Positions 6,309 to 35,621 of a stretch of DNA of 35,692 nt are shown here, piece after piece. The position numbers and the translations under genes are program-made. The notes under the pieces were generated by a model that was given only the letters and a program-made list of their open reading frames with translations, did not search any database and was not told where the DNA came from. Within the stretch, counting starts at the first letter, position 1. Each line of letters starts with the position of its first letter. Origin of the DNA: an uncultured Actinomycetes bacterium (GTDB lineage: Bacteria; Actinomycetota; Acidimicrobiia; Acidimicrobiales; RAAP-2); the NCBI GenBank assembly GCA_903825765.1, contig CAIKBU010000013.1, positions 1 to 35,692 on the forward strand, in the 5' to 3' direction.

Positions 6309-8258
6309 ATGAGCACCTATCGCGCCGGAAATGAACAGAGCCGTGAGCGAATCGTGGCGTTGCTGTTGCTGCTCGAGCGCGCCTTCGTCGAGAAGAAGCC
6401 GCTCACGCAAGACGAGATCATTCGCGAACTCAAGATCGACGAGTACCCCGTCACCAGCAAGAATCCGAAGAAGATTCTGGCCTACCAGGGGGGCGACGCC
6501 GCCGTGCGTCAGAAATTTGAGCGAGACAAGAAGTCCATTCGTGAGTACGGCTTCGACATCGAAACGGTGATCCTGCCCGATGACTCCAGCGGCTATCAGA
6601 TTGACCCCTCCAGTGGCTACGCCCCCGTCATCTACTTCACCGAGGAAGAACAGCGGGTGGTGCGTCTGGCTCTGCGTTTTTGCGGCTTCGGAAACTCGGG
6701 GGCATTTTCGGTATTCAACGAGGTGCCCGCTGGTGACGGCGGCCTCGAGTACAGCGCCTACATCGGACCGATCATTCGAGCCATTCGCCTGCGTCGCGTG
6801 GTGAGCTTTGAGTATCAGTCGTCAACGAAAAAGATGCGCACGATCGAGCCGCTCCACACCTACAGCGTTGACGGGTCGACGTATTTGGTGGCGCGAGTTG
6901 TGGGCAGCGGGGAACTGAAGGGGTACCGCATTTCGCGGATGACCTCGATGCCCGTCGTGCACGCTGAAGGGTTTGAGGCCGACGACGCCATCATGGCGCT
7001 CGCCGACGCGTGGCGCCCCCAGTACCAGAAGGTGCCCACGCCAATTTATGTGCAGGTCGTCACGAACGCGAACTACGCCGAGTTGCTCGGTCGTCAGTAC
7101 CCCGCGGCCATTGCGGCCAACAAGGGCAAGGGGAAAGTTGAAGTGGGGCTGCAATTTGACGACCCGCACACGGCTCTTCGTTTTGTCCTCGACGGCGCCG
7201 ATCGACTGCGCGTCGTGAGCCCGAAGTCACTCGTCAAGGAACTGCGAGTGTGGCTCGAATCGGTAAATCGAGGCGACACGCCCGACCTGTCGACGGTGTC
7301 CTTTTCGTCAGTGAGCGCGAGCGACGTCCTGGGTCAGACGCTGCAGTTGCTGCACGCGATCTACCAAGCGGAAAATGGGTTGCGCGTATCGGAACTGGCG
7401 ACGCGTTTTTCGATGCGCCCCGAGGACGTTCGCCTGATCGTGGGTCGCCTCGTCACGCTCGAACCGATGGCGGATTCACACGACGGCCCGTGGCGCTTCC
7501 CCGCGCGCATCATGAAGTTCTGTGACGACTGGGAAAACGAAGACGAAGACGACTCGATCTACCGCGCCGAGTATCTCGATGAGGCCGATGAACCGTCAGC
7601 GCTGATGTGGCGGGACCTCTTTGAATTGAACTTCGCCCTTCGGGAGGCCTCTCGCCTCTACGACGACCCGGCGATTTTCTCGACCATCGAGAAAATTGAG
7701 GACGTGGTGTCGAACTTCATCCGCGTCGAGCACTCGATTGACGAGCCCCTGTTGGCCGAGGTCAACGCCGCCGTTCGCGGTCGAGAGCAAATCAAGATGA
7801 CCTACGTCAAGGGGTACGAAGACGTGGCCACCGAGCGGACAATTGAGCCCGTCGACGTCCGTGTTCTCAACGGACACAGCTACGTGCGGGCTTTCTGCCT
7901 CACTCGCAATGACTGGCGCACGTTCCGCGTGGACCGCATCACCGCCATCGTTGCGAAGTCGCCCGCGTTGGCGCCCCGTGACCCGGACCCCGTCCCTAAC
8001 TGGCTGACCGAAATTGCCGACAGTGGCGAAGAGGTCGTGGCGATCGTTGACGCCGGATCACGGTATCTGTTTGAGCCGTTGCCGGGTGCACGCTGGGGAA
8101 CGTTCGGTGACAATCGCCACGCGGTGGCCTTTCGGGTGACGTCACGTGATTTTCTGGACCACCTGATGGTGCTGGCGGGACCGGGAGCAGTGGTGGCAAC
8201 GCCGTCATTCGCGAAGGCGGGCCACGAACTCGCACAGCGCATTCTCGACTCGCTCTAG
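6309..8258 (+). CDS. pafBC: Fused PafB-PafC WYL-domain transcriptional regulator
   Basis: PafBC is the actinobacterial activator of the main RecA/LexA-independent DNA-damage response. The 649-residue protein is two WYL-regulator halves in one chain. The first has a winged-helix start (about 13-90) and a WYL domain at about 155-215 (VVSFEYQSSTKKMRTIEPL to LKGYRISRM). The second has a winged helix at about 335-395 (LHAIYQAENGLRVSELATRF) and a WYL domain at about 495-555 (IKMTYVKGYEDVATERTIEP to WRTFRVDRI). The WYL tripeptide itself is degenerate in both (TYL, SYV). Natural fusions of this kind are known in Arthrobacter, while mycobacteria keep two genes. GAGGAG lies four bases before the ATG. 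No proteasome or Pup genes are in the window. Confidence 0.9.
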   Translation: MSTYRAGNEQSRERIVALLLLLERAFVEKKPLTQDEIIRELKIDEYPVTSKNPKKILAYQGGDAAVRQKFERDKKSIREYGFDIETVILPDDSSGYQIDPSSGYAPVIYFTEEEQRVVRLALRFCGFGNSGAFSVFNEVPAGDGGLEYSAYIGPIIRAIRLRRVVSFEYQSSTKKMRTIEPLHTYSVDGSTYLVARVVGSGELKGYRISRMTSMPVVHAEGFEADDAIMALADAWRPQYQKVPTPIYVQVVTNANYAELLGRQYPAAIAANKGKGKVEVGLQFDDPHTALRFVLDGADRLRVVSPKSLVKELRVWLESVNRGDTPDLSTVSFSSVSASDVLGQTLQLLHAIYQAENGLRVSELATRFSMRPEDVRLIVGRLVTLEPMADSHDGPWRFPARIMKFCDDWENEDEDDSIYRAEYLDEADEPSALMWRDLFELNFALREASRLYDDPAIFSTIEKIEDVVSNFIRVEHSIDEPLLAEVNAAVRGREQIKMTYVKGYEDVATERTIEPVDVRVLNGHSYVRAFCLTRNDWRTFRVDRITAIVAKSPALAPRDPDPVPNWLTEIADSGEEVVAIVDAGSRYLFEPLPGARWGTFGDNRHAVAFRVTSRDFLDHLMVLAGPGAVVATPSFAKAGHELAQRILDSL

Positions 8259-8267
8259 CGACCGTTG

Positions 8268-8287
8268 GGCCCTCCGTAAGGAGGGCC
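8268..8287 (+). promoter_or_regulatory. Perfect hairpin with GUAA tetraloop covering the relaxase ribosome site
   Basis: GGCCCTCC (8268-8275), GTAA (8276-8279) and GGAGGGCC (8280-8287) form an eight-pair perfect stem with a GNRA-class loop. The ATG of the relaxase gene begins at the very next base, and its only Shine-Dalgarno, AAGGAGG (8278-8284), is buried in the loop and stem. It could limit translation of the relaxase. It could also act as the 3' end of the pafBC message, but no T-run follows. Confidence 0.75.
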
Positions 8288-9355
8288 ATGATTCGGGTCT
8301 ATTCGCGCACCCAAGCGAACCCGCAGTACTTCACCAAGGACCGAGCGGCCGAACTCGAGGGCGTGCGCGACGGACCAGCGGGTCGATGGCTTCGCGGCAC
8401 CGGCCCCCTCGATGACGATGCCGTCGCGAACGTGTTCGCGAGCACACTGCGCAGCGCCACCATTGGCTACGACCTGGTCATTGCCGCCCCACGACCCATC
8501 TCGATACTGCTCGCGAATGATGAGCGCCAAGCACCCGCCATTGTTGCGGCGCATCAGCGGGCCGTTTCGAGCGCGGTTGCGTACCTCGAAGATCGAGGAG
8601 CGGTCGTGCGGGAGAGACGATTTGGCGAGGTCTACGAAGAACCGGCGCAGTGGCGTCGTATTGCGGCATTCACCCACGGCATCAATCGACACGGCGAGCC
8701 GCACTTGCACGACCACGTTCTCGTCGGTGCCCACACGATGGCCGCCACCACCGCACTCGACGGTCGCGCGCTACGGGCGCACGCCCTCACCGCCGACAGC
8801 CTCTACCGAGCCCAACTACGCGACGACATTGGCCGCACCACCACGTGGCAACCGTGGCGCTCGTTCGCCGGGGCCGAACTCGTGGCCGGCCTCGACGAGG
8901 GCTACCGTGCCCTCTGGGGCGGTCACTTCGATGATCGGCCGGCCAAGCGCGAGTGGACTCGAGATGAGATCAAAGAAAAATGGGCTCGTGACCTCGAACG
9001 CTATGAGCCACTGACGCAAGTGACACGACCCGATTTTGACCGCGGCGTGGTGGATAGCCATCGTTTCGCTGGGGCCCTCAGCGTGCTGAGCGCACCACAT
9101 CGCCGTGATGTGGTCGCCGCACTCGCGGATGCCGCGTCGCTGGGTGTTGATGCCCAACTCGCGCAACGACGCGTGGACGAGTGGCTTCCGGAGGCGCGTG
9201 ATTCTCGTGGTCTGCGGGAAGTTGTTCTCTCGCCACGGCGAGCGATGTCGCTCGGGCGAGACGACACGCCGTCACGATTTCTTTCTCTCGAGGCGGCCAC
9301 TGATCTCTATCGTTCTCGCGATCGATCCTCGGAGCGCGAGGGGCGCTCGAGGTAG
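8288..9355 (+). CDS. TrwC/MobF-family relaxase domain protein without helicase
   Basis: MobF relaxases nick one strand at a transfer origin through an active-site tyrosine and stay linked to the 5' end. This 355-residue protein matches the relaxase domain only: an N-terminal segment with Y5 and Y14 (NPQYFTKD), the PAGRWLRG block (30-37), the GYDLVIAAPRPISILLA block (60-76), AFTHGI with H130, and the metal-binding cluster HLHDH (H139, H141, H143) followed by the ALDGRALRAHALTADSLYRAQL block. MobF proteins usually continue into a large helicase; that part is absent. Family members often show paired tyrosines where this one has a single Y14. The gene ends 49 bases inside the facing coupling-ATPase gene. 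It follows pafBC by 29 bases, almost all of it a hairpin. Confidence 0.85.
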   Translation: MIRVYSRTQANPQYFTKDRAAELEGVRDGPAGRWLRGTGPLDDDAVANVFASTLRSATIGYDLVIAAPRPISILLANDERQAPAIVAAHQRAVSSAVAYLEDRGAVVRERRFGEVYEEPAQWRRIAAFTHGINRHGEPHLHDHVLVGAHTMAATTALDGRALRAHALTADSLYRAQLRDDIGRTTTWQPWRSFAGAELVAGLDEGYRALWGGHFDDRPAKREWTRDEIKEKWARDLERYEPLTQVTRPDFDRGVVDSHRFAGALSVLSAPHRRDVVAALADAASLGVDAQLAQRRVDEWLPEARDSRGLREVVLSPRRAMSLGRDDTPSRFLSLEAATDLYRSRDRSSEREGRSR

Positions 9356-10611
9356 GGACGAAAGCGGTAGTCACGGTAGGACGGCGTGAGTCCGACCCAC
9401 TGCATTGACTTCGCGGCATTGAGGGTCAGTGCGTACCCCGAGCGGCCCTGGGCGAGTTCGGCAATGGAGACATTGTCGTACTCCTGCCACGAGAGTGAAT
9501 GACCCGACGAGCGACCGCGTCGATCTCGCTGCAGCGTGGGCGTTGGCACCATGGAGCGACCACCGAGCTGTTGGAGGAGCTCGAGGGTTGGCCGATCGGC
9601 TATGCCGGGGAGAATCACCGTGGTCGGAAAGAGGGAGAGAAAACCATCGGCCTGTGCGCCCCAGCGAGCGCGAGCTTGACTGAGGTCTTGCAAACACGCG
9701 AGGGTGACGACGCCCTGCCCTCCACCCTCACTGACCACGCTCGCGAGACGAGGCAGTGGCGCCACGTTGGCGAGTTCGTCGAGGGCGAGCAGTAGTCGCG
9801 AACCTCGGTGGTGCGAGTCGTAGGTGGCGTGAAGTACTTCGTCAATCATGCCAACGACGAGTGGTGTCGCTACCGCTTGGTGACGACTGGGCGAGACGAC
9901 ATGAAGTTGGTGGGGGCCAGCGAGAAAAGCGGCAACGTCGAGTGGCGAATCGCGGGCTGATTGTCGGGCGGCTTCGGTGCGCATACCGGAAAACAGGCCC
10001 GACGCACTCGACCAAATACCCGATCGCTCACGTTCTTCACTCTTCATAATCCCCGATAAAAGGCTCGTTGCGGGGTGGTGCGATCCGTAACGCTCCTGGA
10101 GCAGAGCCAATGAGTCATCCGCTGTGCGATGGTCAATGCGCGACACCACTTGCGCCAACGCTTCATCACGCAAGGCACTGGCGTGGAGCAGTGGGGCCAC
10201 CAGCGCAGACGCTCGTTCACTCCAGTGGTCTTCGCCGCGACCGTGGCGACTGTGGTTCTGCACGTCGAGCAAGCTGCGCGTGGCGAGGACCGCGCCGTCC
10301 CACGTGCGCGCTTGGCGAACGGGGGAGTAGCCCACTCGATGAACACCGGGGGGTGTCGCAATCGTGCCGGAAGGATCGTAGAGCAGCACTGCACTATCGG
10401 AGCGCGCCGTGGCCATGACGCGAACGATGTCATCCTTCGTTGACGTGATCACACTGGAGCGTTGAGTGAGCAAGAGGTTCGGTACGATGAGTGACGTCGT
10501 CTTGCCACTTCGACTTGGGCCCAGCACGAGTGCCGATCGTTGCGACCCACTCGTCACATCACCGTTCGTCGTGCGCCCTAAATAGACACCACCGTCATCG
10601 TTCGTTGCCAC
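9307..10611 (-). CDS. VirD4/TraG-like DNA transfer ATPase without membrane helices
   Basis: Coupling proteins of this family bring relaxase-bound DNA to a type IV secretion channel. The 434-residue product has Walker [11 protein letters not shown] (31-40), then LIVPNLLL and the [13 protein letters not shown] block, Walker [10 protein letters not shown] (272-280) followed by ANVAPLPRL, and the late motif [16 protein letters not shown], as in the TraG/TraD ATPase core with its TraM-recognition region. The N-terminus shows no membrane helix, unlike the standard coupling protein, so it may be soluble or anchored by a partner. The start is GTG at 10611 with no clear ribosome site. It converges on the relaxase gene and shares 49 bases with it. 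Function beyond the ATPase family is inference. Confidence 0.83.
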
Positions 10612-10884
10612 TCTTCACAATGGTCGCAGGAGATGAATGCTTGACATTGGGTGATGGACATAGTGAACTTGAAATGTTCTAGTAAAGAGAAAGTTTTTTG
10701 AGAGTGCTTCACGACTCTCTTCACTCTTCTTCGAGAACCGTGCACTGCGTTTAGTAGCACGACAACTGAGAAGTTGGCGTGTACATGATCGAGTGCCCGA
10801 GATGTCGCGGTGTGGACTCGGAGTGACCATGGTGGTCCTCGCGGGTGCTGCAACATCACCAGACGTACATTCCAAGGAGGAAAC
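10612..10884. other. Intergenic region between coupling ATPase and lysine-rich gene
   Basis: This 273-base gap is richer in A+T than its surroundings. It holds a GAGAGT/ACTCTC hairpin at about 10700-10719, a TTGACA at about 10650, and a GAAC-N7-GTTC pair at about 10664-10678. The promoter of the lysine-rich gene and that of the divergent ATPase gene must both lie here, but I cannot assign them. No credible small gene is seen. Confidence 0.5.
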
Positions 10885-11277
10885 GTGGCAACTGCCGCAA
10901 AGAAGACTGTAGCCAAGACGGCTGCTCCCGCCAAGAAAGCTGCTCCCGCCAAGAAAGCTGCTCCAGCGAAGAAGGCCGTTGCCGCTAAGGCTCCTGCCAA
11001 GAAGGCCGTTGCCGCTAAGGCTCCTGCCAAGAAGGCTCCAGCCAAGAAGGCCGTTGCCGCTAAGGCTCCTGCCAAGAAGGCTCCTGCCAAGAAGGCCGTT
11101 GCCGCTAAGGCTCCTGCCAAGAAGGCTCCTGCCAAGAAGGCCGTTGCCGCTAAGGCTCCTGCCAAGAAGGCTCCAGCCAAGAAGGCCGTTGCCGCTAAGG
11201 CTCCTGCCAAGAAGGCTCCAGCCAAGAAGGCCGTTGCCGCTAAGGCTCCAGCCAAGAAGGCTCCAGCCAAGAAGTAA
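10885..11277 (+). CDS. Ala/Lys/Pro-rich repeat protein, histone H1-tail-like
   Basis: The 130-residue product is almost wholly Ala, Lys, Pro and Val, built from [15 protein letters not shown]-type units, and has no globular domain. Such tails bind DNA through charge; similar ones end the HU proteins HupB and HupS of actinobacteria and form stand-alone histone H1-like proteins elsewhere. A nucleoid role is inferred from composition only. GTG at 10885 is chosen because AAGGAGG (10874-10880) lies four bases upstream. The strong ribosome site and strong terminator (11311-11342) suggest high expression. Repeats begin about 30 residues in and run to the stop. Confidence 0.85.
10975..11274 (+). repeat. 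In-frame tandem repeat, period 45 bp (first period 30 bp)
   Basis: The string GCCGTTGCCGCTAAGGCT starts at 10975, 11005, 11050, 11095, 11140, 11185 and 11230: one 30-base step, then five 45-base steps. Copies are nearly identical even at silent sites; most differences are CCT versus CCA proline codons. This points to recent expansion by slippage or unequal exchange. Confidence 0.95.
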
Positions 11278-34552: not shown

Positions 34553-35385
34553 AAAACTTAACAGAAGCCGAACTGGCGGAACGCTTGAAAAGTGGGTGGA
34601 GTCGGTCAGAAGACAGAGCTCATTGGGCCTCGGCCTACTTGTACTACTCCGGAGCAATTGCAAAGCCCACGAAGGGCTACATGCAGATTACGAATTTTGG
34701 AAGACAACTTCTCGCTGAAAACCCCAGCGGCGTGACGCTCGACATTCTTGAGCAGACCGACGGATTGATTGCATGGGATGAACGATCAAAGGCGAAGCAA
34801 AAGAACAAACACTCTGCCGACGAGAAGGTTGGAATCACGACACACGGCATCGACGAAAGTGGTGTCTCACCTACCGAACAGCTAGAGAACGCGATACAAA
34901 CAATGAGGGCGGAGGTGGCGAGTGACGTGCTCGCTCGCCTGCGCACCGAGCATTGGTCATTTATGGAGCATGCCGTACTAAAGGTCTTGCTGAAAATGGG
35001 CTACGGCGCTGATGAGGATGACCTTAATCATGTTGGTGGGCCAAATGATGAAGGCATCGACGGGATTATCAACCAAGACAAGTTGGGCCTGGAGAAGATC
35101 TACGTTCAGTCCAAGCGGTACAAACAGGGGTCGGCCATCAGTGGCGACACCATCAACGCTTTTATGGGTGCAATGGGTCGCAAGGGGGTCACAAAGGGCG
35201 TGTTCATCACGGCCAGCCACTTCACCGACGGAGCGCGGAAAGCTGCTGAGGAGAACAAGCACCAACAAGTAATACTCATTGACGGCGAGGAACTTGCGGA
35301 AATAATGGTGGACTACCAAATTGGCGTAACTGAGGTCCAGACCTTTTCCATCTACAAGCTGGATGAAAATTTCTTCGAGTCCTAG
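34553..35385 (+). pseudogene. mrr: mrr-type restriction endonuclease, 5'-truncated
   Basis: Mrr cuts methylated foreign DNA. The C-terminal catalytic domain is intact: FMEHAVLKVLLKMGYGADED, GGPNDEGIDG (D159), LGLEKIYVQSKRY (Q175, K177, the QxK form of PD-(D/E)xK), and TKGVFITASHFTDGARKAAEE. Numbering starts at TTG 34585. The N-terminal winged-helix domain is incomplete. After a TAA at 34552-34554 the frame reads LTEAELAERL just before TTG 34585, the same words found inside normal Mrr proteins, so about 50 residues are missing and only 75 bases separate this from the IMPase-like gene. Base composition is visibly lower in GC than the neighbours. A short protein from TTG 34585 might still be made. 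Confidence 0.75.
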
Positions 35386-35544
35386 AGGTCAAGAATTTTA
35401 TCTATCGGCGAATGATGGCTACTTTTTAGAGCCGTTCTCGCTCAGGTGAATTACGGCGTCAAACCGTTGCGATGTCCTCTAGGGCTTTTGCCCAGAAAGG
35501 GCTAACATTGGTGAGCTGGTTGAGGAAACCTCGTTTCTGATTGC
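35386..35544. other. Intergenic region between mrr and tRNA-Val
   Basis: About 160 A+T-rich bases. It contains short hairpins such as GGGC-TTTT-GCCC (about 35482-35493) and GAGG-AAA-CCTC (about 35522-35532). The tRNA promoter must lie here; TAACAT at about 35502-35507 is a possible -10 but too far from the tRNA to be certain. No gene or integrase remnant is seen. Confidence 0.4.
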
Positions 35545-35621
35545 GGGCGCTTAGCTCAGTTGGTTAGAGCAGCTGATTTACACTCAGCAGGTCGGGGGTT
35601 CGAGTCCCTCAGCGCCCACCA
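35545..35621 (+). tRNA. tRNA-Val (anticodon UAC), CCA encoded
   Basis: The acceptor stem is GGGCGCT (35545-35551) with AGCGCCC (35611-35617). The D stem is GCTC/GAGC; the anticodon stem GCTGA/TCAGC (35572-35576/35584-35588) encloses TTTACAC, so the anticodon is TAC at 35579-35581. The T stem GGGGG/CCCTC has one G-U pair around TTCGAGT, the discriminator is A and CCA is encoded at 35619-35621. All stems pair. It reads GUA and probably other valine codons. Confidence 0.97.

Follow-up and report, generated by a model that had tools for sequence, protein, structure and literature searches.

Why should a relaxase and a coupling ATPase be encoded face to face in what appears to be an ordinary stretch of bacterial chromosome? 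The two genes lie in 35,692 nucleotides of DNA, referred to here as the window, which is the whole of the stretch analysed (contig CAIKBU010000013.1 of GenBank assembly GCA_903825765.1, from an uncultured Actinomycetes bacterium of the order Acidimicrobiales). An earlier, sequence-only reading of this DNA had described a relaxase-only MobF protein opposite a coupling ATPase without membrane helices, with no other conjugation genes, and had suggested either a minimal mobilisation unit or a pair reused by the host for processing chromosomal DNA. The finding is real, and larger than that reading stated: on balance, we favour the view that the pair is half of a conjugation-like machine for the transfer of single-stranded DNA (ssDNA), owned by the chromosome and vertically inherited in the Acidimicrobiales.

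The facing gene pair

The genes concerned are the following.

8288 to 9355, forward strand: TrwC/MobF-type relaxase, relaxase domain only, with a single tyrosine; 355 residues (Pfam, alignment, AlphaFold2 model)
9307 to 10611, reverse strand: VirD4/TraG-type coupling ATPase without a membrane helix; 434 residues (Pfam, alignment, hydropathy)
9307 to 9355: antisense 3' overlap of the relaxase and ATPase genes, 49 bases, kept in the genus
6309 to 8258, forward strand: PafB-PafC-like fused WYL regulator, directly 5' of the relaxase and a conserved neighbour (Pfam, structure-sequence match)

The relaxase matches the Pfam family TrwC at 87.6 bits over residues 21 to 182 (cut-off 25) and no other family, and scores 76.4 bits against the NCBIfam MobF equivalog, under the 100-bit cut-off of that model. 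An AlphaFold2 model built from 36 sequences has a mean pLDDT of 88, confidence being low in the tail from residue 327 on, and its best fold matches in the PDB are TrwC (1zm5) and the TraI of pKM101 (8a1c), both at E about 1e-10 and probability 1.0, with TM-scores by query length of 0.54 and 0.53. The three histidines typical of MobF (HUH plus one) are in place at H130, H141 and H143, and so is Y14, which we take from its position to be the first tyrosine of TrwC; the profile alignment begins further on. All four residues are invariant in the 37 relaxases of the genus and kept in all 22 aligned relaxases from nine families. The two-tyrosine (Y2) arrangement is absent, and a second tyrosine pair occurs among the 22 aligned relaxases only in the one from locus L215. 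Pfam finds no helicase family in the window relaxase; among nine relaxases of other genera and families that were scanned, five match AAA_30 (29-192 bits) and four do not, the full helicase match of 192 bits belonging to L215 and the other four being weak (29-59 bits). From its sequence, the protein thus appears to be a reduced MobF relaxase from which the second tyrosine pair and the helicase have been lost. In classical MobF relaxases the first tyrosine cleaves and the second restores the plasmid circle in the last strand-transfer step (PMC4176350), a need that would have been lost here. With TrwC of R388 and TraI of F and pKM101 the window relaxase shares its fold, its HUH active site and the position of the first tyrosine; it differs from them in having one tyrosine pair rather than two and, in this genus, no helicase, and in being chromosomal, at a fixed place, facing a coupling ATPase of its own.

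The ATPase matches the Pfam family T4SS-DNA_transf at 78.1 bits (cut-off 20.1) and has the Walker motifs of a coupling protein, GPSRSGKT (A) and LALDE (B), with G31, P32, R34-T38, D278 and E279 invariant in 34 aligned rows. Averaged over 19 residues, its hydropathy peaks at 1.23 in the whole protein and at 0.75 in the first 80 residues, so that a membrane helix is not predicted, and the N-terminal membrane anchor of VirD4/TraG is lacking; 6 of 117 relatives, duplicates included, exceed a hydropathy of 1.6. The orientation, coordinates and 49-base overlap described by the sequence-only reading are exact, the overlap consisting of the 3' ends of both open reading frames, and its account of intact catalytic residues and Walker motifs, of a missing helicase and of a missing membrane anchor is likewise correct.

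Conservation of the pair

Both genes are present in all 37 genomes of the genus that were searched (39-52% identity for the relaxase, 50-71% for the ATPase), and in every one the two face each other and overlap, by 37-204 bases; G002 and G026 each have one TAG flagged inside the ATPase match, yet the open reading frames there are 429 and 430 residues long. In 18 of 18 larger loci pafBC, the relaxase and the ATPase follow in the same order, with rnhB next in 17. A wider contig scan yielded 262 relatives, of which the best 80 of 262 were taken; these are labelled mostly Acidimicrobiaceae, Acidimicrobiales, Actinomycetes and uncultured actinobacteria, and three Acidobacteria labels and one Saccharibacteria label were taken as mislabelled bins. 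The relaxase adjoins the ATPase in 77 of the 80 loci, the other three ending within the ATPase, and 76 of the 77 pairs overlap, one being separated by a 61-base gap; 30 of the 77 relaxases have an identical counterpart among the 37 of the genus and so are not independent. The facing, overlapping arrangement is far beyond chance.

Median dN/dS is 0.19 for the relaxase (range 0.07-0.30, 102 pairs) and 0.11 for the ATPase (range 0.04-0.33, 1273 pairs). The pairs in these counts are not independent of one another, and the same genome sometimes occurs under two names. These sequence comparisons indicate purifying selection on both genes. The sequence-only reading had proposed both this comparison and a search for the facing pair at the same locus in related genomes, and had named as counter-evidence a pair confined to one strain inside a larger element, or a disabled tyrosine or Walker motif. 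What was found is a widespread pair with these residues intact, and a strain-specific element was rejected on its presence in all 37 genus genomes, on its fixed locus and on the wider contig scan. Because the locus is fixed, inheritance vertical and selection purifying, both the long co-residence and the reuse by the host suggested earlier are strongly supported.

A secretion system elsewhere in the genome

Within the window, Pfam finds no channel protein of a type IV secretion system (T4SS) and no integrase, replication or partition protein among 28 proteins, some small open reading frames being unscanned. The absence of other conjugation genes thus stands for the window. It does not stand for the genome: the search with the ATPase also brought up a VirD4-like protein, the second in this genome, on contig C4. 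Clustered with it are a VirB4/TraC-like ATPase, an SCO6880-like (VirB3-like) protein, an SCO6881/VirB6-like protein with several helices, and a VirB2-like protein of the DUF6112 type, which bears a resemblance to T4SS pilins as well. The VirB6-like and VirB2-like assignments rely on sub-cut-off or DUF matches together with gene order, and the family assignments are weak in the genus: its SCO6880-like protein scores 46.4 bits, below the cut-off of 60 (two members from other families pass, at 214 and 201 bits), and the SCO6881, TrbL and TrbC-pilin matches all fall below their own cut-offs. The AlphaFold2 model of the VirB6-like protein is mostly helical, with a pLDDT of 75. At the 21 T4SS loci taken from the genus, the present genome included, the cluster has as neighbours a histidine kinase (20 loci) and serS (19 loci), and contig ends truncate the others; VirB4 occurs in 33 of 37 genus genomes, including 12 of the 16 outside those 21 loci. 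This cluster, with its own VirD4-like ATPase and its co-occurrence with the pair, speaks against a minimal mobilisation unit.

Directly beside the cluster in the present genome (L042:3140-4944) are a tyrosine integrase, a helix-turn-helix protein and a tRNA-Arg. This segment is likely a recent insertion; the 20 other genus loci have no such integrase match.

Distribution in the order

Do the pair and the T4SS travel together? In 248 genomes of the order, searched with profile thresholds of E 1e-40 for the ATPase and 1e-30 for VirB4, the ATPase occurs in 73, VirB4 in 95, both in 70 and neither in 150 (Fisher p = 3e-36), and pairwise distances are correlated between ATPase and VirB4 (r = 0.93), between ATPase and the flanking response regulator (0.945) and between VirB4 and that regulator (0.93), with values of 0.74-0.85 for the kinase; kinship of the genomes inflates the p-value and the correlations alike. 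ATPase and VirB4 are often at the same chromosomal addresses across the order. In 346 genomes of the phylum the ATPase profile gave 14 matches, seven inside the order and seven weaker ones outside it (E 1e-54 to 1e-65).

Twenty further ATPase loci were compared: one from another genome of the genus, three from the family's other genera and 16 from other families. Of these, 13 have an adjoining relaxase, and 11 of these 13 also a nearby PafBC-like gene. At least 26 ATPase-relaxase pairs on the same contig are present among the matches listed (25 genomes, 9 of this family), 23 of the 26 facing. Twenty further T4SS loci, 16 of them from other families, have a histidine kinase/response regulator neighbour in 16 cases, a contig edge in one and neither in three. 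One genome of the order is a single contig of 2,158,157 bases, on which a relaxase of 683 residues lies about 27 kb from the ATPase, and DUF6112-, SCO6880-, VirB4- and VirD4-like genes stand beside the kinase and response regulator; its VirB6-like gene is unmapped.

A shared 12-base element

Three short features connect the pair with the T4SS operon or lie at its gene starts.

8258 to 8269, forward strand: element GCGACCGTTGGG, common to the T4SS operon, a candidate nick site or operator
8268 to 8287, forward strand: inverted repeat GGCCCTCC-GTAA-GGAGGGCC, from the pafBC stop to the relaxase start, its 3' arm holding a GGAGG ribosome-binding site
10616 to 10627, reverse strand: weaker copy of the element, GCGACCATTGTG, just 5' of the ATPase start

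The element and the pafBC stop codon share one base, the first of the former and the last of the latter. At the relaxase, 77 of 79 distinct sites match at 10/12 or better, 72 of them 26-33 bases 5' of the start; L117, one of the two misses, keeps the nine-base core close to where the element should lie. Of 20 T4SS operons, 19 have the element ahead of their first gene at 10/12 or better, and 17 of these 19 reach at least 11/12; with a different search span the count is 18 of 20, and the remaining L076 has the nine-base core. The copy at the ATPase start is weak, reaching 9/12 or better in 18 of 33 with no shuffle control. As to background, the whole 1.75-Mb genome holds 34 sites at 11/12 or better on both strands, and 8 genomes together contain 34 copies of the exact 12-mer against 3 of the reversed control. 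Several single sites lie inside apparent coding genes and may be due to chance. The relaxases outside the main set have no clear copy, the best score being 7-10/12 in 13 loci, with a partial one in G110.

Tyrosine-integrase genes, too, have copies in front of them (Pfam confirmed three of three such genes), as at L282 (G010:C25:114000-130000), where the element lies at the start of a tyrosine integrase next to a RepSA replication protein, an AICE-like arrangement. Seven of 13 genomes contain, at 18 sites in all, a longer repeat that begins with the element (no site for the control); 16 of the 18 are followed by what looks by eye like the 3' end of a tRNA-Lys, two of these being intact tRNA-Lys(TTT) genes, and the element also lies next to two tRNA-Lys(CTT) genes. 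The element also forms arrays spaced 1.7-4.5 kb, one of them around a Fic gene.

The arrays at L287 (G000:C59), L294/L300 (G009:C49), L305/L306 (G008:C128) and L307/L309 (G008:C136) are made of small integrative units with tRNA-Lys-like attachment sites, each unit starting with an extended, 29-base form of the element, and one cargo is the Fic protein.

At the relaxase the element runs into the inverted repeat, where a stem of 5 or more forms in 48% of copies against 6% of shuffles. Read on the opposite strand this gives a hairpin followed by about 8 conserved bases, resembling the layout of the R388 nic site (PMC4176350). The repeat may equally be a translational-coupling hairpin. A hairpin as a general origin-of-transfer (oriT) feature of the element was rejected, being supported at the relaxase copy only. 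In other families the sequence TGAAA-N5-TGAAA stands 5' of the T4SS operon at 9 or 10 of 10 matching bases in 9 of 19 loci and 5' of the relaxase in 5 of 12, counts that are descriptive since the pattern was derived from some of the same sequences. That relaxase and T4SS operon are marked together in both lineages supports their belonging to one system.

In L351, L356-L362 and L366 the TGAAA-N5-TGAAA ten-base direct repeats lie 5' of the DUF6112 gene and are perhaps a regulator site.

Some candidates for these sites were tried and dropped. No known RNA family coincides with the element: the only Rfam match in the window to reach its gathering score is one tRNA, and 17 loci gave two tRNAs and, on the strand opposite to them, two matches below threshold. 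TTGTCRGTG, a PafBC-type promoter word, has 28 matches in the window at no more than one mismatch (shuffle mean 16; 0 of 100 shuffles reach 28), spread out, and nothing was drawn from them. An integron-like core site was set aside, the base after GTTGGG not being restricted.

A proposed transfer machine and its alternatives

Gene content, synteny, co-occurrence, conserved catalytic residues, purifying selection and the shared cis element are direct observations; nicking, transport, cell-to-cell transfer and any damage control are steps that we infer. The relaxase would nick a chromosomal site through Y14 and remain on the 5' end; the facing VirD4-type ATPase would take up the relaxase-DNA complex and pass it to the T4SS of the second locus, whose DUF6112 (VirB2-like), SCO6881/VirB6-like, SCO6880/VirB3-like, VirB4-like and second VirD4-like proteins would deliver the ssDNA to another cell. 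The cargo would be single-stranded chromosomal DNA, possibly including integrated elements that bear the same 12-base element. Such a cargo would suit a relaxase that has lost its helicase and its second tyrosine pair, because linear chromosomal DNA need not be recircularised. A bolder version, which we hold tentatively and think rather less likely than its failure, is a mating system of the Acidimicrobiales linked to DNA damage, in which the single-tyrosine relaxase nicks GCGACCGTTGGG at both loci, its own and that of the T4SS, and exports chromosomal DNA, and in which the small tRNA-Lys integrative elements and some integrase elements carry the site and are moved by the host's machine.

Several observations weigh against a transfer machine. 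VirB4 was not found in G001, G004, G026 and G027 (completeness 91, 87, 93 and 85%), and the match in G016 spans two in-frame TGA codons; 25 of the 95 VirB4 genomes of the order are without this ATPase, the 150 with neither make up most of the 248, and seven of the 20 further ATPase loci have no relaxase nearby. The statistics of co-occurrence carry the inflation by kinship already mentioned. A relaxase without a helicase requires unwinding from elsewhere. The 12-base element may be an operator: the hairpin that a MobF nick site should have exceeds chance at the relaxase copy only (11% against 6% at 19 T4SS copies, 0% against 5% at 18 tRNA-linked copies), and the shared element of other families is a different one.

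What else, then, might the pair do? The machine could move chromosomal DNA by release into the medium, like the gonococcal island, or by import for repair, like the archaeal Ced system, rather than from donor to recipient. The reduced channel does resemble the Ced set of VirB2, VirB4 and VirB6 homologues (PMC9905601), and the neighbouring gene is PafBC-like, PafBC being a factor triggered by ssDNA (PMC11804915); the relaxase is kept under selection here, however, whereas the sections of PMC9905601 drawn on report no apparent relaxase homologue in the archaeal genomes, and we regard release or import as improbable, if a serious contender. Somewhat less probable again is that relaxase and ATPase act inside the cell, in repair or replication, while the T4SS secretes protein independently. 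The PafBC linkage, an ATPase without a membrane helix, a relaxase without a helicase and the four genus genomes that have the pair and no VirB4 found speak for such a division of labour; against it stand the co-occurrence and matched distances of ATPase and VirB4 and the cis elements shared by relaxase and T4SS operon in two lineages. We see hardly any likelihood that the pair is a recently acquired or decaying integrative element that is common by chance: mobile elements typically carry TrwC and VirD4 families, and longer TrwC-type frames, often of 800-1600 residues, occur elsewhere in the order, but synteny is fixed, the residues are conserved, dN/dS is well below 1, distances correlate with those of flanking genes, the 28 window proteins scanned include no integrase or replication protein, and the pair does not have the patchy distribution of an integrative conjugative or mobilisable element.

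A further alternative concerns the 12-base element alone and is compatible with any of these readings. With a probability a little short of even, GCGACCGTTGGG serves a transfer regulon as the operator for a transcription factor, and the repeat at the relaxase is a translational-coupling hairpin, neither being an oriT. The element does lie near the starts of relaxase, T4SS and some integrase genes, the hairpin is confined to the relaxase copy, following directly on the pafBC stop and including the ribosome-binding site, and the element of other families differs; on the other side, the copies at tRNA-Lys attachment sites are away from gene starts and point towards the tRNA, and the relaxase hairpin with its 8 or so conserved bases looks like the nic site of R388 (PMC4176350).

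Comparison with known systems

The closest known idea is the Ced/Ted machinery of hyperthermophilic archaea, a domesticated, chromosomal conjugation apparatus with VirB2-, VirB4- and VirB6-like parts (PMC9905601), as here, where such homologues are chromosomal and inherited with the genome, VirB4 being missing in 4 of 37. In the Sulfolobales it is activated by DNA damage (PMC9905601). The present case differs in being a bacterial order that retains a relaxase and two VirD4-like ATPases. Actinobacterial T4SS with SCO6880/SCO6881 proteins share the SCO6880-type protein and the VirB4- and VirD4-like ATPases with the Acidimicrobiales cluster; in this genus, by contrast, the SCO6880-like protein is below its cut-off, and the cluster has a conserved chromosomal address. 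The gonococcal genetic island is of horizontal origin. It combines a chromosomal relaxase with an F-like T4SS that exports chromosomal DNA (PMC12857230), whereas the Acidimicrobiales set is kept across the order and split over two loci. Patescibacteria have a chromosomal, widely kept T4SS of the monoderm type, from most clusters of which, according to the sections of PMC12102498 drawn on, the relaxase is absent; in the Acidimicrobiales it is present and conserved. Our literature search, with most subscription journals and preprints outside its scope, gave no report of such a system in Acidimicrobiales among the matches listed. If the proposal is true, a whole order passes on relaxase, coupling ATPase and channel together with its chromosome, host-controlled gene exchange in bacteria becomes directly testable, and a single-tyrosine, helicase-poor relaxase shows what changes once a plasmid need no longer be recircularised.

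The surrounding chromosome

The protein encoded at 6309-8258 has a WYL match of 103.6 bits (Pfam) and resembles the solved PafBC structure 6sj9 (E 4e-15) and PafC 7p5x (E 3e-8), a sequence relationship that identifies it as a probable PafBC-type regulator. The neighbouring DNA-damage regulator on which the sequence-only reading had leaned is thus PafBC-like and kept in several families, but adjacency by itself does not show damage control. Judged by its gene content, the window around the pair is ordinary chromosome: besides this regulator it encodes dxs, msrB, FtsX, CofC, RNase HII and an oligopeptide transporter, and further 2-oxoglutarate dehydrogenase, a UvrD-like helicase, a Mur ligase and a D-Ala ligase. 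Adjoining the ATPase, at 10888-11277, is a gene for a histone H1-like protein with KKAPA repeats (HC2 39.2 bits, just under the cut-off of 40), and similar repeats stand at the same place in some relatives. At the end of the contig, a gene for an Mrr-type restriction endonuclease (34585-35621) lies by a tRNA-Val, a possible integration spot.

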